From an uncultured Elusimicrobia bacterium (lineage in GTDB: Bacteria > Elusimicrobiota > Elusimicrobia > Elusimicrobiales > UBA9959): a DNA stretch of 64,000 nucleotides. Under the pieces are notes generated by a model that was not told the DNA's origin, made no database searches, and saw only the letters and a program-made list of their open reading frames with translations. The stretch covers positions 1 to 64,000 of the forward strand of contig CAISZM010000045.1 of assembly GCA_903889965.1 (NCBI GenBank). The letters are read 5' to 3'. Below are positions 41,015 through 54,007 of this stretch, piece by piece. Every line of letters begins with the position of its first letter. Position 1 is the stretch's first letter. A program made the position numbers and the translations under genes.

Positions 41015-44000
41015 CTATTCCAGGCTCGCCCCGGCTGCCTTCAGGAGTTTTGCAGCGGCATACTGCTTCGCCCTTATCGCCAGCTGCATGGGGGTTTCCC
41101 GCTGCGAACCGCCCGCCGCGTTAAGATCGGCCCCCGCCTTTACCAGCTCTTCCAGGATCTCGTTAAACCCGGTCTCAATTGCCAGATGCAGCGCAAGTTC
41201 GCCGTTGGCACTCTCCTCGTTTACGTCCACGCCCCTGGCTAGCGCCTCTTTCGCCTTCGCGAGGTCCTTTGTTTTTATAGCGTCAAAGAGGCTCTTCGCC
41301 ACATTCGGGTCCGTGTTGACGTTGAGCTTCGCGAGTATTTCCGCGGCGGCCTTGTTGGCCACGGAGTGATATTTGGAAGAGTTTATTATCTCTTCCTTGC
41401 CATACCTCAGGTCCGCCCCGGATTTAAGGAGCTCAAGGGCCGCTTCGAAATGCGACATCCTGACCGCGAAAGCGAGCGGCGTTTCCGAGCTGTTGGTCTG
41501 GATATTGGCGTCCGCTCCGGACCTTATAAGCTCCCGCACTACTTCCACGCACCCCCCGGAGGCGGCCAGATGCAGCGGCGCGTAGCCGTTATCGGGCCTC
41601 TTCGAGTTAACCTGGGCGCCGGCTTTGATAAGAGCGGCCAGCACCGTAATTTTATCCGCCGCGGCTGCCCTGTTGGCGGAAACTATAGTGTGTATGGGGA
41701 GGGTCGGCGTATACTGGTTGCCGCAGTAGTTGGGATCCAGGCCCGAAGCGATTATCTCCAGCATCTTCTCGGTGTCGTTCGTGGAGCAGGCCGATTCGAA
41801 GCGCTTATATAAAGCCTTCTTGACCGAGTCGTCGGCGACCTTGACTCCCAGCTTCACAAGGATAGCCGAGGCCTCGGCGTCGCCCCGCTGCTCTACGGCG
41901 CCCTTCAAATAGGTTATCGCGCTCTTATTTTCCCCAAGCTCGGCGCCCGCTCCTATAAGCAGCTTGATGAGGACCAGGTCCTGCCGCCCTACGGCCTCGG
42001 CTAGCGGCGTCCTGCCGGCGTTGTTCTTTATATTAGGTCCCGCGCCTTTTGACAGCAGTTCTTTCGCTATTTCAGCGGAGCCGAGGGACGCCGCCATGTG
42101 GAGCGCCGTGTCGCCGGATTCCGGGTCCTGCATATCAAGGTCCCCGCCCAAAGCTAAAAGATCGCGCACCTTGCTCAGGTCGTTCCCCTTTATAGCCTCG
42201 AACAGCTTTCCTACGCCCTTGACCGCCGACATTATCTCTATGGCCCTGGGGTTGCCGCGGAGCGCGGCCTGCGAGAGGACGCTCCTGAGGTCTCCGGACT
42301 TGATCTCGTATTTACATCCCCGCCGTATGAGCTCCAGCACTATATCGGAGCTGCCCGCCCTCACCGCGAAATCTATCGGAGCCTCGCCCGCGGAGGTCCG
42401 CTTGTCCTTATCCGCGCCCTTATCGATAAGCGCGTTAACGGATCCAAGGTCCCCTTTTACGCAGGCATAGTGCAGCGGCGTCAGGCCGTTCAAGTTCGCC
42501 TCGTCCGCTTTTGCGCCGCAGCCGAGCAGGCGCACTATACCATCGGGGTAACCGTTGCCGGCGGCCGCGTGGAGCGGGGTATCCCCCGCGTCGTCCTTTA
42601 CATTGACGTCGAGCCCCGCCGAGACAAGTTCGGACACGGCTTCTAGCTTCTTTTGCGCCGTAGCGGCGTGCAGGGCCGTGGCGCCGGTTTTATTCCTCGA
42701 GTTTATGTCGGCCCCGGACTTTACGAGTTCCTTTACGACTTCCACCGACCCGCTGCCGGCCGCGATCTCGAGCGGCGAAGCGCCGTTATTGCTTTTGGCG
42801 TTCACTTTTGCGCCGGCCGCTATCAGGGCTCTTATCGTGCCGAGGTCGCCCATCTGGCACGCCGTGTGCAGAACGGTATACCCCTCGTTGTTAGCCGCGT
42901 TCACGTCGGCCCCGGCCTGTATGAGTCCCGGCACCTGGTCGAATTTCCCGAACGATATCACCCTCGCGAGCTGGCTGAAGCCCTGCGCGTCCGCCGCGCC
43001 CGTGTTAGCGCCGGCCTTTGAGAGCTCCTGAGCCATTTCACCGTCGCCCAGCTCGGTGGCCATCTGGTAAGCGGTGTAGCCTTCGTTCGTTTTCGCGTTC
43101 ACGTCGGCGCCGGATGCCAGGAGTTCCTTAGCCGCGTCGATGCGCCTGAAGGCGACAGCCTTGTGAAGGGCGGTAATGCCAGCGTTGTTCCTCGCGTTCG
43201 CGTCGGCCTTGGCGGACAGCAGTTCTTTGATCACGGAAAGGTGCCCGTTTTCGGCTGCCAGCATCAGCGGCGTATAGCCTTCGGGGCCGGGCAGGTTCAT
43301 ATCCGCGCCCGCTTTTATCAGCGCCTTAAGAAAGTCGAGCTTGCCGCCGGCGGCGGCCCATAAAGCCGTAGTGGAGGTGCCCTGGTTCCTGACATTAGGG
43401 TCCGCCTTTCCATTAAGCAGGGCGGTGAATATGCCCAGGTCGCCCACCAGGGCAGCCGTGTACAATACCGAAAGCTGGTCGGCCGGTGAGACGTGGTTCA
43501 CGTTGGAACCCGCCCTTATAAGTTCCTCGCAGACCTCGAGGTGCGCCGCGCGTACTGCGCCGTACAGCGGGGTGTTGCCGTTGGAGGTCCTCGAATTCAC
43601 GTCCGCGCCCGCCTTCAGGAGCTCCTTTACCACGGGCAGCCGCCCGTTGAACGAGGCGTAGAAAAGGGGCGTCCGCATCTCCTTCCCGCCCAGGTTCACT
43701 TCGGCCTTAGCCTTAAGAAGCTCGCTAACAATCTCCAGCGAGCCGTTCTCCGAGGCGATGTGCAACGGGGCTGTATTTTCGGCGTCGAGCGTGTCCGGGT
43801 TCGCCCCGGATGACAGCAAAAGTTTCGCTATCGCTGGTTTTTGGGCCCGTGCCGCCAGATGCAGCGGCGTAAGGCCGGCGGAGTCTTTCGCGTTGGGATC
43901 CGCTTTCGCGTTCAGCAGGACTTCGACGGCCTCTTTCGAACCGGAGACTGCGGCGAAATGCAGCAGTGTGCCGCCGTTTTTATACCTGCGGTTGATATCG

Positions 44001-44584
44001 AAGCCGGCCCTTACGAACTCAAGGACGGCTTCGGGATGGTTATGCGATGCCGCGGAGTACGGCGGGGTTTCGTTCGCCCCGTTCGACGCGTTCATGTCGG
44101 CGCCCTTGGCAAGGAGCTCCTTTATAACCTCCAGATGCCCGCCCGTGGCCGCCTTGTGCAGCGGGGCGTCGCCTGACGAGTTCCGGGAGCAGGCGTCGGC
44201 GCCCCGCGACAGCAGCTCGCGTACGGCGTCGAGATGGCCATTTTCCGAGGCGCGGTGCAGCGGCGTCGCGCCGGCAACGTCGGTTGCGCCCGCCTCGGCC
44301 TTCATATCGAGCAGCAGTTTTATAACCTCGAGGTTCCCGCGCATGGCGGCTATATGCAGCGGGGTTTCCCCCGCCGAGTTCTTCTGGCTGACGCTCGCGC
44401 CCTTCTCTAAAAGTTCTTTTGCAACTTCCGTAGTCCGGTTATACCCCGCAAAATGGAGGGCAGTGTTACCGAGCGGGCCCCTTGCCGTTATATCGGCGCC
44501 GTTCGCCAGAGCTTCCTGCACTTTGCCAAGAAGCCCCTCTTTCGCGGAGTTCAACAAAAGCTGGTTCAGTTCCTGCTTATCCAT
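41015..44584 (-). CDS. Giant ankyrin-repeat protein (1189 aa)
   Basis: Tandem ~33-aa repeats GxTPLHxAAxxGxxEVxKELLxxGADVNAxxxx over almost the whole length. Confidence 0.97.
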   Translation of the reverse strand: MDKQELNQLLLNSAKEGLLGKVQEALANGADITARGPLGNTALHFAGYNRTTEVAKELLEKGASVSQKNSAGETPLHIAAMRGNLEVIKLLLDMKAEAGATDVAGATPLHRASENGHLDAVRELLSRGADACSRNSSGDAPLHKAATGGHLEVIKELLAKGADMNASNGANETPPYSAASHNHPEAVLEFVRAGFDINRRYKNGGTLLHFAAVSGSKEAVEVLLNAKADPNAKDSAGLTPLHLAARAQKPAIAKLLLSSGANPDTLDAENTAPLHIASENGSLEIVSELLKAKAEVNLGGKEMRTPLFYASFNGRLPVVKELLKAGADVNSRTSNGNTPLYGAVRAAHLEVCEELIRAGSNVNHVSPADQLSVLYTAALVGDLGIFTALLNGKADPNVRNQGTSTTALWAAAGGKLDFLKALIKAGADMNLPGPEGYTPLMLAAENGHLSVIKELLSAKADANARNNAGITALHKAVAFRRIDAAKELLASGADVNAKTNEGYTAYQMATELGDGEMAQELSKAGANTGAADAQGFSQLARVISFGKFDQVPGLIQAGADVNAANNEGYTVLHTACQMGDLGTIRALIAAGAKVNAKSNNGASPLEIAAGSGSVEVVKELVKSGADINSRNKTGATALHAATAQKKLEAVSELVSAGLDVNVKDDAGDTPLHAAAGNGYPDGIVRLLGCGAKADEANLNGLTPLHYACVKGDLGSVNALIDKGADKDKRTSAGEAPIDFAVRAGSSDIVLELIRRGCKYEIKSGDLRSVLSQAALRGNPRAIEIMSAVKGVGKLFEAIKGNDLSKVRDLLALGGDLDMQDPESGDTALHMAASLGSAEIAKELLSKGAGPNIKNNAGRTPLAEAVGRQDLVLIKLLIGAGAELGENKSAITYLKGAVEQRGDAEASAILVKLGVKVADDSVKKALYKRFESACSTNDTEKMLEIIASGLDPNYCGNQYTPTLPIHTIVSANRAAAADKITVLAALIKAGAQVNSKRPDNGYAPLHLAASGGCVEVVRELIRSGADANIQTNSSETPLAFAVRMSHFEAALELLKSGADLRYGKEEIINSSKYHSVANKAAAEILAKLNVNTDPNVAKSLFDAIKTKDLAKAKEALARGVDVNEESANGELALHLAIETGFNEILEELVKAGADLNAAGGSQRETPMQLAIRAKQYAAAKLLKAAGASLE

Positions 44585-44698
44585 TTTATTTCCTCCCGAG
44601 GGGACCTGTTACGGTGAAAACTCAATCGTCAAAACGCCGGCCCGGCAGCGGCCTTTAGCGGGCACTGCCGGGCCGAGGCCAGAACTCAGGGAAGGCCC

Positions 44699-45082
44699 TT
44701 ACTTTCCCTTCAATGCCTTGATCACTTCGATATTGCTCTGCCCCATCGCCACTTCCATGACGGTCTTCCCGTCGGAATTCTTGGCGTTCAGGTCGGAGCC
44801 GGCCTTTACGAGCTCCTTTATTATCGCGATATTGTCCCTGTAGACCGCGTGCAGGAGGGCCGTCTGGCCGCAGGTGTCCTGCGCCTTGACGTCAGCCCCT
44901 TTTGCGAGGAGGGCCTTTATAGCCTCCAGCTGGTCATAATTCGCGGCCAATATAAGCGCGGTCTTGTCCATGTCGTCCGATTTTGCGTTCACGTCCGCGC
45001 CCAATTCCAGCATCTCGTTGATCTTCTCGAGGTCGCTGGACTTGGCAGCCTCAAAAAGCCCGTTTTCAAGTGCGTTACTCAT
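44699..45082 (-). CDS. Small ankyrin-repeat protein
   Basis: NGLFEAAKSSDLEKINEMLELGADVNAKSDDMDKTALILAANYDQLEAIKALLAKGADV; paralogous to the next gene's N-terminus. Confidence 0.94.
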   Translation of the reverse strand: MSNALENGLFEAAKSSDLEKINEMLELGADVNAKSDDMDKTALILAANYDQLEAIKALLAKGADVKAQDTCGQTALLHAVYRDNIAIIKELVKAGSDLNAKNSDGKTVMEVAMGQSNIEVIKALKGK

Positions 45083-45101
45083 TTTTTTCTCCTCGACCGC
45101 T

Positions 45102-45740
45102 TTAACTTAGGTTGTACAGTGCCCCAAGGAACTCGGGGCAAAGATCCAGGTCGCGCAGGGTTACCGCGCTTATGCAGCCGAAAGGTACGAACATGGAGAG
45201 GCCTGGGCCGCTCACGCTGCCCGCAGCCAGCGTCAGCATGCTCTTCTCAAAATTTAAGCCCGCGATAACTCCCGTAAGAGGCGCCCCGGATGACAAATAC
45301 AGCGTTATCTGCGGAATGGCCACGCTTCCGGATAATTTGCGGGAACCCAGGGCCCGGCCGTATACCTCAAAGATCTTTTGGAAGCTGCCGGGCTTTAACG
45401 CCGCCAGGCGGTCCTGAGCCGGGGTGCCGGCCTTCAAGCCGGTGTCCGCGCCTGCCCGGGACAATTCCTCCGCCAGGGCCTGATGATCGCCCGACAACGC
45501 GGCGGCATACGCGGTTCCCCCACCCAGGTCGACGGCATTGAGGCCGGCGCCCCTGGAGATCAGGAACTTGACCGCCCCGGCCTGGTTATTTTCCACGGCG
45601 ATCATTAGCGCGGTCTTGTCGAAACAAGCTCCCGAGGCGGCGTTAATGTCCGCCCCGAGGTCCAGCATTTCGGCCATCTTTTCCAGATCGCCGTCCCGTG
45701 CCGCCTCGAAGAGGCCGATGTCAGGAGTATTGTTGGTCAT
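45102..45740 (-). CDS. Ankyrin repeats plus C-terminal conserved domain shared with 45743-46054
   Basis: N-terminal Ank repeats; C-terminus LKPGSFQKIFEVYGRALG...LYLSSGAPLTGVIAGLNFEKSMLTL...MFVPFGCISAVTLRDLDLCPEFLGALYNLS. Confidence 0.88.
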   Translation of the reverse strand: MTNNTPDIGLFEAARDGDLEKMAEMLDLGADINAASGACFDKTALMIAVENNQAGAVKFLISRGAGLNAVDLGGGTAYAAALSGDHQALAEELSRAGADTGLKAGTPAQDRLAALKPGSFQKIFEVYGRALGSRKLSGSVAIPQITLYLSSGAPLTGVIAGLNFEKSMLTLAAGSVSGPGLSMFVPFGCISAVTLRDLDLCPEFLGALYNLS

Positions 45741-47712: not shown

Positions 47713-48831
47713 TCAGGGATATCGGTTACTGACGATCCTGCTGCCGGCTATTATATCATGCCAGGTGCGCTTGTCCTTCTCCCAGATAGCCCAGACGTAG
47801 CCCAGCAGGCCGAACAGAGAAACCAGCGAGAAGAAAGCGCGCAGGAAAGCCTTGTCGGCGGTCAGCGGGCCGCCGGAGGAAAAATCAACCGCCTTCAGTT
47901 TGAAGATCTTCATGGCCGGCGTGGCCCCGAAGCGCCAGAGGAATATCCCGCAGTACAGCGCCCAAAAAAGCATTTTCAGAGGGGCGTGCTTAGCCCCGGA
48001 ATTTTGGAGGCCGGTGTCCCAGCCGGCGGACTTGGTTTCGACACGTTCCAAAACGGGACTGGATCCTCCGTCGTCTACGGTCACTTTTTTCAGGATAATA
48101 TCCTTGGCGCCCGCCTTATCCTTTACCTCCCACCTGGCGCGGGGGCCGCAGGACTGCAGGCCGAGGGTGTTCATGATTATCAGGATTATGACCATATCGG
48201 TCAACAGGGAGCCCAAACGGCGCCAGAAACCGGCACGGTACGGGGCGGGCTGAGGCGTTCCGAAGGTCGGTGCAGCGGCGGCGGCTGTTTCTCCCGGAGA
48301 CTGCGCCCCGACCGGGGTTTCGCGCAGCACCCGGAAAACCTTTATCTTTTCCGGGATGCCCTTGAACTGGCGGTAACCTATCTCGCTCGAGGGCACTTCC
48401 TTTTTGTTCATGGACAGGTAGACGGCCTCGGTGAAGAAGACCTCGCCCGCCTCGGCTATGCTTTCAAGGCGCGAGGTTATGTTGACCGCGTCGCCGTAAA
48501 TATCCCCGTCTACATCCACAGATACTTCGCCCGCGTTGATGGCGATGCGTATCTCTATCTTTTCTTCCTGCGGCTTGTCGGAGTTGTGCGCTTTCAGGAC
48601 GTCCTGTATCTCCACGCCGCAGATCACCGCGTCGGTAGGACTGTTAAAAGCGACCAAGAACGCGTCGCCTATCGTTTTGACGAGGCGGCCGCGGAACTTT
48701 TCTATCACCGGCAGCACCAGCTCGCGGTGCCTGGCAAGGAGTTCCTGGGTTTCCGCCCTTGAAAAGGCCGAGGTCTTCGAGGTGAAGCCCTTGATATCCG
48801 TGAGCATTATAGTGATGTGCCTGGTTTCCAT
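47713..48831 (-). CDS. Class III adenylate/guanylate cyclase domain fused to RDD membrane domain
   Basis: ITIMLTDIKGFTSKTSAFSRAETQELLARHRELVLPVIEKFRGRLVKTIGDAFLVAF...DAVNITSRLESIAEAGEVFFTEAVY; C-terminus YRAGFWRRLGSLLTDMVIILI ... DKRTWHDIIAGSRIV (RDD). Confidence 0.9.
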   Translation of the reverse strand: METRHITIMLTDIKGFTSKTSAFSRAETQELLARHRELVLPVIEKFRGRLVKTIGDAFLVAFNSPTDAVICGVEIQDVLKAHNSDKPQEEKIEIRIAINAGEVSVDVDGDIYGDAVNITSRLESIAEAGEVFFTEAVYLSMNKKEVPSSEIGYRQFKGIPEKIKVFRVLRETPVGAQSPGETAAAAAPTFGTPQPAPYRAGFWRRLGSLLTDMVIILIIMNTLGLQSCGPRARWEVKDKAGAKDIILKKVTVDDGGSSPVLERVETKSAGWDTGLQNSGAKHAPLKMLFWALYCGIFLWRFGATPAMKIFKLKAVDFSSGGPLTADKAFLRAFFSLVSLFGLLGYVWAIWEKDKRTWHDIIAGSRIVSNRYP

Positions 48832-48873: not shown

Positions 48874-51516
48874 CTAAACCTTGATCCTTTTATCTATGAC
48901 CCTGCGGATCTTGCCTGTGCGCTGGATTCTCTCTATGGAGTTCGGCTTCAGCACCTCTATCTCCGGCTTGTCCAGCCACTTCATCCGCACGCTCTCATGC
49001 AGGTCCGCGCAGTGCCCCTCGATCTCGCCCCATAACAGCTCCGCCAGCTCCCCGGCTTTAGCCAGCGCCCCGGTCGTTTTCACCTCGACGCGTATCTTCA
49101 GCATATCCCGGTGGCCTTTCTTATCTATAACGACCTGGAAATTAAAACCGAGATCCGGCACCTTACCCAGCGCGTTCTGGATGTCGTTCACGAACAAATG
49201 CGCGCCTCCTACGTGGATCCTGTCGTCGCAGCGCCCGAGTATCTCGAACAGCGGCTCCTTCCTGCCGCAGCCGCAGGGCTTCATCAGCCACCGCCCCAGG
49301 TCACCAACCCTGTAACGGATGATCGGCATATGCTTCTTGGAGAGCCCGGTAACCACCAGTTCGCCGACTTGTCCCTTCCCCACCGGCGCCATGGTATCCT
49401 GGTCTACGAATTCTATGAACTGGCTGAAAGCGAACAGATGATGCTGCCCCTTGACGCAGGCCGGGCACTGGAACCCCACCACCCCGGCGTCCGCGGTTGC
49501 ATAGCCCGCCGAGCGGACATCCGCGCCCGGGAAAACGCCTTTAAGGAATTTCACCATTTCGGAGCCCACATACTCCCCGCCGTAAAAGATCTTCTTCACG
49601 TGAAGTTCGTACTTGCCCTTGTTCGCCTTCACGAACTCGGCCAGCTTCACGAGAAAGGACGGCAGCCCTATGACCGCCGTAACCTTAAAATCTTCGAGGT
49701 ACCCGGCGATATTTTCGAGAGGGAGGTTGCTTCCCACCGGAACCGAGATAGCCTTGGTATAGGAGATGGCTTTCTCCACGGACAGCCAGCTGGACCAGAG
49801 GTTCCCGGCTATAAAAAGGTTAGCTATAACGTCCTTCTCGTCCAGGCCCGCCGCCTCCAGCGTGTAAGCCAGCACCCGGCAGGTGTGGTCATATTCGTGC
49901 TGGTCGTAAAAAACATATTTTGGCTGGCCCGTGGAGCCGCCGCTCGCGAAGAAGATGCCGCGCTGAACCTTGGAGGTCAGCAGGTCCGCGCTGTCCGGAG
50001 GGGTATTCTCCAGTACGTGGTGTTTTTCCAGAAAAGGCACCGTCTGGAAATCCGCTATGGTAATTATCCTCGGCACGTCCTTAAAATGCCGCTTGTAGAA
50101 CGGGCTGCGGGCCCGCGCGTGCTCCACCAGTTCGCTGATACGGTCCAGCTGCGAGGGCTTTTCCTCTATCGGGACCCAGTTGACAAGGGACAGCATCGGG
50201 AAGATCCCGTCGTGCGGGGAGCCGTTGGCCTCCTCCAGCATCTTCCCCAGCTTCACCACCCGCGATATCCCCGCGGGCCCCAGGGTCTCTAGCACCTTTT
50301 TGCGCTCTATCGAGCCGCCCACGCCGACCGTCTGTATGTAGCCGCGCAGGGGCATCAGCAGCGCCTTTACCTGCTCAAGAGTTTCCACGGTCTTCACGTA
50401 CAACACCCGGTTCAGAGGCGAAACGCGGTACACCGGGTCCTTCTCGTAAATGACGGTCCAGTGCGTGGAGGGGGCCGAGCTTTCATATGACGCGTTGCCG
50501 AGCGCCGCGTCCACGCGCGCGAGCTCCCTGGCCCTGGTTATCTCCACCTGTTCGTCCGGAGAAAGGCGGCCCTGCGGCAGTTCTTCCGCGAGTTCGGCAA
50601 AATGTTTTTTCGCCGCCTTAAGGAAATCGGCCGCAAGCGCCTTGTGTTTCCCCGCCGGCGCGATAAGGTAAAGAGTGTGCAGCGAGGAGCAGGCCGCCTG
50701 GTCCCAGAGCGAGGCGTCCAAAGCGGCCCTGCGGGCCACGGCGTCAATGCCCTCGTATTCTATGCAGCTTTCAAAAACTACGCCGACGCTGGTCTTCGGG
50801 CCGAAGCCCTCCACGCGCACGTCTATGGGAGCTATCTTCCTGTAGGCCTGCACCGCGTCGTAGCCTCCCCACACGAAAACCGCGTTGACGTTCTTCACCG
50901 CGGCTTCTTCCAGTTCCTGCCTGCCCCCCTTCCAGCTTACCACAGCGGCCGACCCGGCAAGCGCGCCGCGCTCATCGACCTCTTTCAGCGCGTCCATGAA
51001 AAGATTTATAAAGTTGGAGCCCGATGAGGACAGCTTGACGATATTCACGTTCTTTGTGAGGAACCCTATTACCAGCGAGTCCAGTATACCCAGGAACACG
51101 TTTCCGGCGCCCACGTGCAGCACCACGCCCCTGGGCAGCGCGCGCACCAACCCGTCGTATCCGCGGCGCTCGACCGGGGCCTCGAGCGCGTAGGGAAGGA
51201 ACAGCTCCATGTTCATGCGCTTCATCAGGGTCTTTCTGTCGAGGATCTCAGGCACGATATCCAGGCTCTTTTCTATGACCGGTCCGGAAAAAGTTATGTG
51301 CCGCTTAAGATGCTCCAGCGCCGCATGACGATATTTTCCGCCCTTCTCAAAAAGCGCGCCGGCCCTGGACAGCGTTTCGGCAATGTAATCGCGGGGGACC
51401 CCGCGCATCAGCGCGCTGGCCTCCTGCGCCCTCCGGCCGACCTCTTCAATTTCAGCCGGGGTCCACGAGGTCTTATCCAGACTTTCCCCGAAAAGATAGG
51501 TATTATGTATTTTCAT
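48874..51516 (-). CDS. LuxC-like acyl-CoA reductase fused to PaaK-like (phenylacetate-CoA ligase family) AMP-binding domain
   Basis: N-half: GVVLHVGAGNVFLGILDSLVIGFLTKNVNIVKLSSSG, DASLWDQAACSSLH (LuxC). C-half: HARARSPFYKRHFKDV, FFASGGSTGQPKYVFYD, GELVVTGLSKKHMPIIRYRVGDLGRW, ILGRCDDRIHVGGAHLF (PaaK). Confidence 0.9.
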   Translation of the reverse strand: MKIHNTYLFGESLDKTSWTPAEIEEVGRRAQEASALMRGVPRDYIAETLSRAGALFEKGGKYRHAALEHLKRHITFSGPVIEKSLDIVPEILDRKTLMKRMNMELFLPYALEAPVERRGYDGLVRALPRGVVLHVGAGNVFLGILDSLVIGFLTKNVNIVKLSSSGSNFINLFMDALKEVDERGALAGSAAVVSWKGGRQELEEAAVKNVNAVFVWGGYDAVQAYRKIAPIDVRVEGFGPKTSVGVVFESCIEYEGIDAVARRAALDASLWDQAACSSLHTLYLIAPAGKHKALAADFLKAAKKHFAELAEELPQGRLSPDEQVEITRARELARVDAALGNASYESSAPSTHWTVIYEKDPVYRVSPLNRVLYVKTVETLEQVKALLMPLRGYIQTVGVGGSIERKKVLETLGPAGISRVVKLGKMLEEANGSPHDGIFPMLSLVNWVPIEEKPSQLDRISELVEHARARSPFYKRHFKDVPRIITIADFQTVPFLEKHHVLENTPPDSADLLTSKVQRGIFFASGGSTGQPKYVFYDQHEYDHTCRVLAYTLEAAGLDEKDVIANLFIAGNLWSSWLSVEKAISYTKAISVPVGSNLPLENIAGYLEDFKVTAVIGLPSFLVKLAEFVKANKGKYELHVKKIFYGGEYVGSEMVKFLKGVFPGADVRSAGYATADAGVVGFQCPACVKGQHHLFAFSQFIEFVDQDTMAPVGKGQVGELVVTGLSKKHMPIIRYRVGDLGRWLMKPCGCGRKEPLFEILGRCDDRIHVGGAHLFVNDIQNALGKVPDLGFNFQVVIDKKGHRDMLKIRVEVKTTGALAKAGELAELLWGEIEGHCADLHESVRMKWLDKPEIEVLKPNSIERIQRTGKIRRVIDKRIKV

Positions 51517-52679
51517 AACATCGTAGCCGCGCTTATGGCGCAGCCTTTCAATTTCTTCACCCCGGCGCGGCCGTGTATTTCAAGCACAGGTCCCGGCAGG
51601 CCGCAGCGGCAGCGTTCGCGCACCAGCCCGAAGTCGGAAGAAAGCACGGAGAGAGAAGGGTAGCTGGACAGGTAAGGAGTTATGAACTGCAGCAGGCCTT
51701 TTTTGCCGTAGCCCAGCGGCGCGAGCGTGCCGGGGTGACGGACTATCACCCGGCCATAATTGGGAATGTGAAAATTGCCGAGCCGGCAGTCGACATACGG
51801 CACTCCGTGCTCGACCATTCCGAACAGGTCCCGGACATTTTCCGCGGGTATGCCGAGTTTATCGGCCAGGACCTTGCGGTAGATCTTCTTGTCCATGGCC
51901 TCGTCCGACATCGTTTTCCATCCGCCGCCGGTAACGACGCTTGAGGCGGGGTTAAGGCGCGGGTAGCGGCCGAACCGTTTTTTAAATTCTTCGGTCAGTT
52001 TAAGGGCGAAGGCCGGAAACCCCACAAGGCGGACCAGGCCCCCCGCGTCCTCGAACTTTTTCATGGCCGAAACGGCGCCCTCTATATCGAAATAAAAATC
52101 ATTCCTGGACTTGCTCCAGCGGAAGGTGTAGAAGATCTCCCCTTTTTTGGTGAAACCGCTGAGCAGCTTGTCGGTCCAGGCGGTGCCCAGGTCCACGGCC
52201 ACTTCGGGGTCGTAGGTGAAACAGATATAGTCGTGCGCGCGCTCGTCCGTAAGGCGGAGGCCCTCGAACACTTTCCAGGCCATGCGGCGTACACGCATCA
52301 GGGATCCCCTGTCCAGCTGCATGCGGCTGCGCTGCCCGGAGGTGCCGCTGGACTTCAATTCCAGGACTATTTTGGAATAGGGCAGGGTGGTGAGATCGCG
52401 CTCCTTAAGGGCGGCCACGAATAAAAAGGGGATATTTCGCATGTCGCGCTCGGACCTTACCGAGGCCGGGTCGAAGCCCTCGGCTTTGTAAAGCGCCTTC
52501 AGCACAGGGGCCCGGCGTCCCTGGTAAGCCAGCGCGGCGCGCATGGCGGCACAGAAGGCCCTGGAGGTCTTCGGCGAGTACTCGAAAGCCGGCGTCTCGA
52601 ACAGTGCGTCCATCGGCGCGCGGCTCTTCAGCGGCTTGTAAAAGGGCGGAAGGCTGTTTTCCACTGATAGGTCTGCCAC
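51513..52679 (-). CDS. LuxE-like acyl-protein synthetase
   Basis: LELKSSGTSGQRSRMQLDRGSLMRV ... GFPAFALKLTEEFKKRFGRYPRL ... SSVVTGGGWKTMSDEAMDKKIYRKVLADKLGI ... LFGMVEHGVPYVDCRLGNFHIPNYGRVIVR. GTG start with AAGGAG RBS; 4-nt overlap with LuxC-PaaK gene. Confidence 0.88.
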   Translation of the reverse strand: MADLSVENSLPPFYKPLKSRAPMDALFETPAFEYSPKTSRAFCAAMRAALAYQGRRAPVLKALYKAEGFDPASVRSERDMRNIPFLFVAALKERDLTTLPYSKIVLELKSSGTSGQRSRMQLDRGSLMRVRRMAWKVFEGLRLTDERAHDYICFTYDPEVAVDLGTAWTDKLLSGFTKKGEIFYTFRWSKSRNDFYFDIEGAVSAMKKFEDAGGLVRLVGFPAFALKLTEEFKKRFGRYPRLNPASSVVTGGGWKTMSDEAMDKKIYRKVLADKLGIPAENVRDLFGMVEHGVPYVDCRLGNFHIPNYGRVIVRHPGTLAPLGYGKKGLLQFITPYLSSYPSLSVLSSDFGLVRERCRCGLPGPVLEIHGRAGVKKLKGCAISAATML

Positions 52680-52801
52680 AGCTGTCTCCTTAACCGGGTC
52701 AATCAAGAAAATTACCGCTTCAGGCCGAGGCACAAGCGCCGCATGCGCCCCCTGGCACTCCCGCCGCCTGAACCCGCGCCTTGCGGCGGGCAAAACAGAT
52801 C

Positions 52802-54007
52802 TTACTTTTTTACCCCTGGCTCGTCCTTAAAGACCAGCTCTATATAATTCTCCCTCCACAATTTAAGGTACTCGCGGAGGAAATTCTTGTAGAGGGAGAT
52901 TATCTTGACGTTCCTGAAATCCAGCACGTCGAAAGTGCGGGAGAAAGCGATACAGTCATACCTTTTTTTCCCCACCTTTTTCACGCAGGGGAAGTAGGCG
53001 CTGGGAATATAGCGGGCATCCAGCGCGTCGCGCTGTATGTGCGGCGAATAGGCGTCTATGATGACCTCTATATAGGCCATGTCCATATCGCTGACCTTGC
53101 GCGCTATGCTCTCCAGCACAACGGCGAAGCTCTTCTCGTTGGTGACGCCGCCCACCACCACGCTGTACTTGTCCTTCTGGTTATAAGTCAGGTACACCTC
53201 GGTGCCCTGGTCCGGGGTCACAAGTATAAGGTTCGGTTCGTGAAAAGGCATCGAGATGTGCTCGAAGAAGCTGTTGTTCTTCGTTTTGCGCCAGCGGTTC
53301 TTTACGAAATTCGGCGCGGTGATGACCTCGAAATTAAGCAGCGGTATGCGCTGCTTGTGGTCGCTGTATTCGCATTTCACGTCTTTCACCGCCGGCTTGT
53401 CCAGGTTGACCTGCCTGCGCACTATATCGTAAAAAGGCTCGACCTCGGGGATAAGGCGCGTGCGTTGCCGGCGCAAAGCCAGCGCCCGTTCCGTCAAATA
53501 ACCGGTAAGGCAGTGCGTCTCGTTGTCGTGCACCTTGTGGGTGTTGGGGAAAATGCCGAGTTTAACAAAACCCAGGCTCTCCGTGAGCTTCTGTGGAGCG
53601 TAGTTGGCTGTGCGGGTGGTGGCGTAAACAAGGTCCACCAGGTCCTTATTGTGAGTAATGTCGTCCAGGACCAGCTTCATCATGGTATAGGCGAGGTCCA
53701 GCTTGCGGTATTCCTGGCTGACCACGGCGCCGAAAGCCTTGGAGATGCGGTTCGTTAGGTCCACCGCGTAAACCAGGCTGCCGACCACGCGGCCCTGGCA
53801 CTCCGCCACTATCCAGCAGTAATCGTCGTGTTCTATGGCGCTGCGCATGCGCTCTTTATCGGTCACTATCGGAACGGAGTAGGTCCCCCCGTAGACCTCC
53901 ACGTAGAGCATCTGTATGCGGCGCATGTCCTGCAGCCTGGCGAGGCGGATAATGATATCCGGCTTCCCCTCGCTCTTTATTATCTTTTCTATCTTTTTAT
54001 GGGCCAT
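52802..54007 (-). CDS. GNAT-family acetyltransferase with extended C-terminal domain
   Basis: IRLARLQDMRRIQMLYVEVYGG ... GRVVGSLVYAVDL ... GAVVSQEYRKLDLAYTMMKLVLDDI ... PQKLTESLGFVKLGIFP. Confidence 0.85.
   Translation of the reverse strand: MAHKKIEKIIKSEGKPDIIIRLARLQDMRRIQMLYVEVYGGTYSVPIVTDKERMRSAIEHDDYCWIVAECQGRVVGSLVYAVDLTNRISKAFGAVVSQEYRKLDLAYTMMKLVLDDITHNKDLVDLVYATTRTANYAPQKLTESLGFVKLGIFPNTHKVHDNETHCLTGYLTERALALRRQRTRLIPEVEPFYDIVRRQVNLDKPAVKDVKCEYSDHKQRIPLLNFEVITAPNFVKNRWRKTKNNSFFEHISMPFHEPNLILVTPDQGTEVYLTYNQKDKYSVVVGGVTNEKSFAVVLESIARKVSDMDMAYIEVIIDAYSPHIQRDALDARYIPSAYFPCVKKVGKKRYDCIAFSRTFDVLDFRNVKIISLYKNFLREYLKLWRENYIELVFKDEPGVKK

Follow-up and report, generated by a model that had tools for sequence, protein, structure and literature searches.

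We analysed a 64-kb window (the whole stretch of DNA studied here) from an Elusimicrobiota genome of 2.2 Mb that is 90% complete. Three neighbouring minus-strand genes in it encode a GNAT-type acyltransferase, a LuxE-like ligase and a LuxC-PaaK fusion, and all three lie where a first-pass annotation of the window had placed them. Their features are as follows.

48874..51516, minus strand: LuxC-PaaK fusion, 880 aa, ATG start (Pfam/NCBIfam domains, orthologues, predicted fold)
50176..51336, minus strand: LuxC-type (acyl-CoA/acyl-protein reductase) domain, residues 61-447 (PF05893, E 4e-68; alignment to 7xc6)
50689-50691, minus strand: codon of the predicted LuxC catalytic Cys276 (alignment to LuxC of PDB 7xc6)
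48886..50154, minus strand: PaaK-type adenylate-forming domain, residues 455-877 (Pfam; PDB 4r1l, E 6e-38)
51513..52679, minus strand: LuxE-like acyl-protein synthetase, 388 aa, GTG start (PF04443, E 3e-33; orthologues and ribosome-binding site)
51540-51542, minus strand: codon of the predicted LuxE acyl-acceptor Cys (residue 418 of the long reading frame, 380 of the short one)
51513..51516, minus strand: ATGA stop/start overlap of the LuxE and fusion genes (conserved in many orthologues)
52802..54007, minus strand: tandem-domain GNAT acyltransferase, 401 aa (PF00583, E 1e-5; predicted fold; PDB matches)

GC content by codon position supports a coding role for all three genes and not for the open reading frames on the opposite strand. 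The middle gene is LuxE-like, as first described, with a corrected start: orthologue starts and a Shine-Dalgarno sequence (AAGGAG) place it at the GTG at 52679 and not at 52793, and a longer LuxE reading frame extending to 52793 is unlikely. The four-nucleotide overlap with the fusion gene, also described earlier, is kept in most close orthologues, the others having gaps of 34-178 nucleotides. Downstream, on the same strand and separated from the fusion gene by 42 bases, lies a gene for an adenylate/guanylate cyclase domain fused to an RDD membrane domain (47713-48831); it is not conserved beside the operon in relatives, and we rejected it as an operon member. The flanks offered no usable clues to the pathway, being either housekeeping genes (for example, coaBC and panC) or unshared. 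Elsewhere in the window, three neighbouring reading frames (41015-45740; 1189, 127 and 212 aa) appear, from their translations read by eye, to be a tandem group of ankyrin-repeat proteins.

The fusion carries on one intact reading frame the two domains named for it in the first-pass annotation: a LuxC domain (PF05893) is followed, after a short linker, by a PaaK-like adenylating half composed of AMP-binding (PF00501, E 3e-12) and AMP-binding_C_2 (PF14535, E 1e-10) domains. That annotation had allowed that the fusion might be an artefact hiding a stop codon between the domains. We rejected both an assembly and a frameshift artefact, as the window's gene has no such stop and the protein is found at full length in many independent assemblies, numbering in the dozens. 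By alignment, Cys276 is the counterpart of the cysteine in the DQxAC motif of Photobacterium LuxC (7xc6), and every row of the fusion alignment has it. The PaaK half retains the ATP loop (SGGSTGxPK) and the RYRxGDLG, GRCDD and C-terminal RTGK motifs, all invariant across the aligned fusions, together with a group of cysteines and histidines that presumably bind zinc. These residues (Cys684, His692-693, Cys748 and Cys750) occupy positions common to PDB 4r1l. The predicted fold (mean pLDDT 86, pTM 0.65) is confident for each domain and less so for their arrangement.

The LuxE-like protein aligns to the LuxE chain of 7xc6 through the C-terminal KGC, the cysteine of which is invariant in the 26 rows of the alignment. 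The roles of the LuxC and LuxE cysteines, established for the lux enzymes, are carried over to the present proteins by alignment. Among the profile matches of the LuxC half are aldehyde dehydrogenases (ALDHs), the superfamily to which LuxC belongs, and it could be argued from this that LuxC runs in reverse here, as an aldehyde-oxidising, acyl-CoA-forming catabolic enzyme, with PaaK and LuxE handling acids. We consider this very improbable, given that two ATP-dependent acid activators and the LuxE acyl-cysteine point to reduction, and that no catabolic genes are linked to the operon in the loci compared.

The third gene had been described as a GNAT with a long C-terminal extension. The GNAT assignment stands, and the extension appears to be another GNAT-like domain: the predicted model (pLDDT 88) has an N-terminal GNAT half (residues ~17-170) followed by a GNAT-like half (~227-358), the latter recognised by how its secondary-structure elements are ordered in the model. 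PDB fold matches mostly have TM scores by target of 0.65-0.80. The probable CoA-binding loop reads RKxDLA in the window's clade, with D in place of the G of the canonical loop. To place this protein relative to the other two, we searched LuxE and GNAT profiles in 196 genomes of the window's class and counted strong hits. LuxE was found in 58 genomes, the GNAT in 59 and both in 57, and 41 of 66 GNAT copies lie within 500 bases of LuxE (kinship among the genomes ignored in both counts). In addition, the Streptomyces GNAT family matches just four of 72,556 plasmids, all four of which carry the fusion. This co-occurrence and adjacency across genomes supports the GNAT as part of the LuxE/fusion system and led us to reject a chance neighbourhood of the three genes. 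Of the earlier suggestion that the GNAT-like enzyme uses or modifies the product, the part supported is its membership of the system.

At least eight bacterial phyla contain the gene set, two-part enzyme included. Among named relatives, the best matches to the fusion come from Elusimicrobia metagenome-assembled genomes (81-85% protein identity). Within the phylum Elusimicrobiota, the fusion query finds a match at some level in 106 of 295 genomes. Almost every member of the window's family has a full-length fusion, even where the genome is only 1.6-2 Mb, and more divergent full-length fusions occur in other Elusimicrobiota families. Outside the phylum, the fusion was found in Armatimonadota, UBP9, Muiribacteriota, Wallbacteria, Riflebacteria, Bdellovibrionales, Bacteriovorax, Streptomyces and Salmonella plasmids. 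At E <= 1e-60, the fusion has matches in 68 of the 129 genomes sampled from the Bacteriovorax class (Bacteriovoracia), nearly all across both domains. The same threshold gave matches in 23 of 199 Streptomyces genomes, one of them to the LuxC half only, so that the fusion is present, patchily, in about one in nine of the sampled genomes of this genus. One conjugative IncF plasmid of Salmonella enterica (L084:8560-14318) encodes LuxE, LuxC-PaaK, PaaK and a different GNAT; recombinase genes flank this group on either side, and a Tn3 transposase gene lies upstream of it. E. coli genomes gave no DNA-level match to the Salmonella version, and phages gave PaaK-like pieces only, with no fusion.

Separate trees for the two halves of the fusion, LuxC and PaaK, resolve three matching clades, each corresponding to one operon type; support is strong for clades II and III, and moderate at the base of clade I in the LuxC tree. 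Clade I, which includes the window, has the three-gene core GNAT-LuxE-fusion, with neither an exporter nor a second PaaK. Clade II has a secreted protein, PaaK, a GNAT-like protein, LuxE, the fusion, an MFS exporter and the GNAT; the first of these genes (L050:3244-4263) encodes a secreted-looking protein with a weak match to the protein-glutaminase family PF18626. Clade III comprises MFS, GNAT, LuxE, the fusion and a second PaaK. The three-gene form is also found in the Bacteriovorax class (L144, L145). In the Streptomycetaceae (Streptomyces and Streptantibioticus), the order PaaK-MFS-GNAT-LuxE-fusion is constant in 11 of 11 loci and the flanks are not common to the eight genomes compared; this five-gene cassette thus looks self-contained.

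Further fusions and splits involve the same activities. One Armatimonadota genome (L099:7069-11013) has a genuine triple fusion, with LuxE, LuxC and PaaK on one reading frame of 1314 aa, and LuxC and PaaK are adjacent separate genes in two Pseudobdellovibrionaceae, an arrangement that looks like a later split because both nest inside clade III. Taken together, the triple fusion and the adjacent separate genes indicate that the three activities are tied together. A second apparent LuxE-fusion reading frame, of 1218 aa (L039), was rejected: its upstream part is not LuxE-like, and the LuxE match ends by the four-nucleotide overlap. Tight coupling of LuxE to the fusion does not appear to be obligatory, as unrelated genes lie between the two in some relatives: NicO/DUF1007 (L033:3424-4901), a DNA methylase (L080:10953-11828) and a phosphonate-binding protein/DUF362 (L040:10574-12684).

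These genes very probably activate a carboxylic acid and reduce it to an aldehyde, judging from their domains and motifs. The first-pass annotation had counted two acid-activating modules and one LuxC reductase in the operon, and the LuxE, PaaK and LuxC domains are indeed all present with intact motifs. In lux chemistry, an acid and ATP give an acyl-AMP, the acyl group passes to a LuxE cysteine and then to a LuxC cysteine, and reduction with NAD(P)H releases the aldehyde. Beyond the observed gene structure, catalytic residues, linkage, distribution, fusions and splits, we infer the direction of the reaction, the order of its steps, the substrates and the product as follows. The three genes would be the core of a compact biosynthetic cassette free of PKS and NRPS. 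LuxE would adenylate a carboxylic acid and take the acyl group onto its C-terminal cysteine, from which it would pass to Cys276 of LuxC for reduction by NAD(P)H to the aldehyde. The fused PaaK may activate the same acid, or another one, as acyl-AMP or acyl-CoA beside LuxC, and the tandem GNAT may transfer an acyl group, most simply from a CoA thioester made by PaaK, to an amine on either the substrate or the product. The product would most likely belong to the small N-acylated aldehydes or alcohols, and the versions with an MFS pump would export it. One speculative scheme would use every part: reduction of the carboxyl group of an N-acyl-amino acid, by analogy with ArgA-ArgB-ArgC.

This full reading, in which an ATP- and NAD(P)H-dependent LuxE-to-LuxC reductase works with a PaaK ligase and an N-acyltransferase of its own towards a small N-acylated aldehyde or alcohol, is the one we prefer, and we hold it to be about as likely as not. 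The domain matches and intact motifs support it, as does the fact that LuxC and LuxE are chains of one solved entry (7xc6), both of which are matched here. The triple fusion and adjacent separate genes, the pairing of GNAT with LuxE, the constant gene order in Streptomycetaceae and the GriC/GriD precedent discussed below also speak for it. It is weakened by the presence of both LuxE and PaaK, one of which seems redundant for a single acid, by the lack of an exporter and a second PaaK in the window's operon, by the genes inserted between LuxE and the fusion in some relatives, and by the D in the GNAT loop of the window's clade.

The exporter-less window version, kept in nearly all family members, even those with genomes of 1.6-2 Mb, as would be expected for a cell component, is also what a supply of fatty aldehydes or alcohols for membrane or surface lipids (ether lipids or wax esters) would predict, the GNAT then acting on the head group of a lipid; moreover, the LuxC and LuxE of luminous bacteria use long-chain fatty acids. 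Set against this are the MFS exporters of clades II and III, the patchy occurrence in Streptomyces and, in the loci compared, the lack of any conserved lipid, ACP or glycerol-acyltransferase gene adjoining the operon, and we judge a lipid role to be unlikely.

Going beyond the small N-acylated product proposed above, the operon versions could represent one widespread, undescribed, carrier-protein-free pathway (LuxE, LuxC-PaaK and tandem GNAT, with or without a second PaaK and MFS) to an exported N-acylated aldehyde or alcohol, acting as a natural product or signal; Elusimicrobiota, Bdellovibrionota and Streptomyces would have this pathway in common, and Salmonella plasmids would carry a close variant of it. 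We offer this only tentatively, as somewhat more doubtful than not. If true, a self-contained set for an aldehyde- or alcohol-type metabolite, made without PKS, NRPS or carrier proteins, would exist in at least eight phyla and could escape searches keyed to PKS/NRPS, and the fusion would be a natural one-chain acid activator and reductase of interest for biocatalysis. With the five-gene cassette present in Streptomyces species, the question can be put to a direct test in a genus that grows in culture.

Each component family is known. The first-pass annotation knew of no characterised LuxC-PaaK fusion, and we found no account of the fusion or of a LuxE/LuxC/PaaK/GNAT cluster in the open-access literature, which is weak evidence of absence; the fusion is nevertheless far from rare (22 of 199 Streptomyces genomes over both domains, and about half of those in the Bacteriovoracia). 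As far as that literature shows, the cassette is widespread yet uncharacterised.

Among known systems, the C-terminal half of the fusion resembles the PaaK phenylacetate-CoA ligases (4r1l, 2y27), its nearest relatives by profile, with motifs kept over about 420 residues. It differs in being fused to LuxC and in scoring 147.9 against the TIGR02155 equivalog cut-off of 646.3 bits. A parallel by domain type, an acid activator with a partner reductase, is the grixazone pair GriC and GriD, which we take to be PaaK-like and LuxC-like, respectively. The part of the source available to us describes AMP-binding GriC and GriD as reducing an aryl acid to the aldehyde (PMC10179220, citing Suzuki 2007); the likeness is drawn from that description and not from sequence. 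An activator and a reductase acting on an aryl acid, as envisaged in the first-pass annotation, are therefore not new in themselves, being known as separate proteins, and that part of the source mentions no LuxE-like partner or tandem GNAT. With this precedent, and with a PaaK related to phenylacetate-CoA ligases fused to LuxC, PaaK alone might feed LuxC with an aryl acyl-AMP or acyl-CoA, leaving LuxE as an alternative loader or acting elsewhere. We think this rather unlikely, though the strongest of the competing explanations: where the locus is complete, LuxE almost always stands next to the fusion; it has kept its acyl-cysteine and is itself fused in the Armatimonadota protein. The constant pairing and retained cysteine make LuxE unlikely to be dispensable.

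Carboxylic acid reductases (CAR; A-T-R) differ in having a carrier (T) and an SDR-type reductase domain, both absent here in Pfam/NCBIfam scans. In an Aeromonas flagellar glycosylation island, where their role has only been inferred, luxE, luxC and an AMP-dependent synthetase likewise occur together, but as separate genes and with ACP, ketoreductase and sugar genes (PMC7874193). As first noted, luciferase is lacking, with no PF00296 match in the 90% complete genome (controls matched), and LuxD was found neither at the locus nor in a genome search whose controls likewise gave none. The NCBIfam equivalog cut-offs for LuxC (116.9 against 750 bits) and LuxE (87.8 against 550 bits) are not reached. 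The present genes share with the luminescence LuxC-LuxE pair (7xc6) a LuxC with the DQxAC cysteine and a LuxE with the C-terminal KGC acyl-cysteine; unlike that pair, they have a PaaK domain fused to LuxC and a dedicated GNAT.
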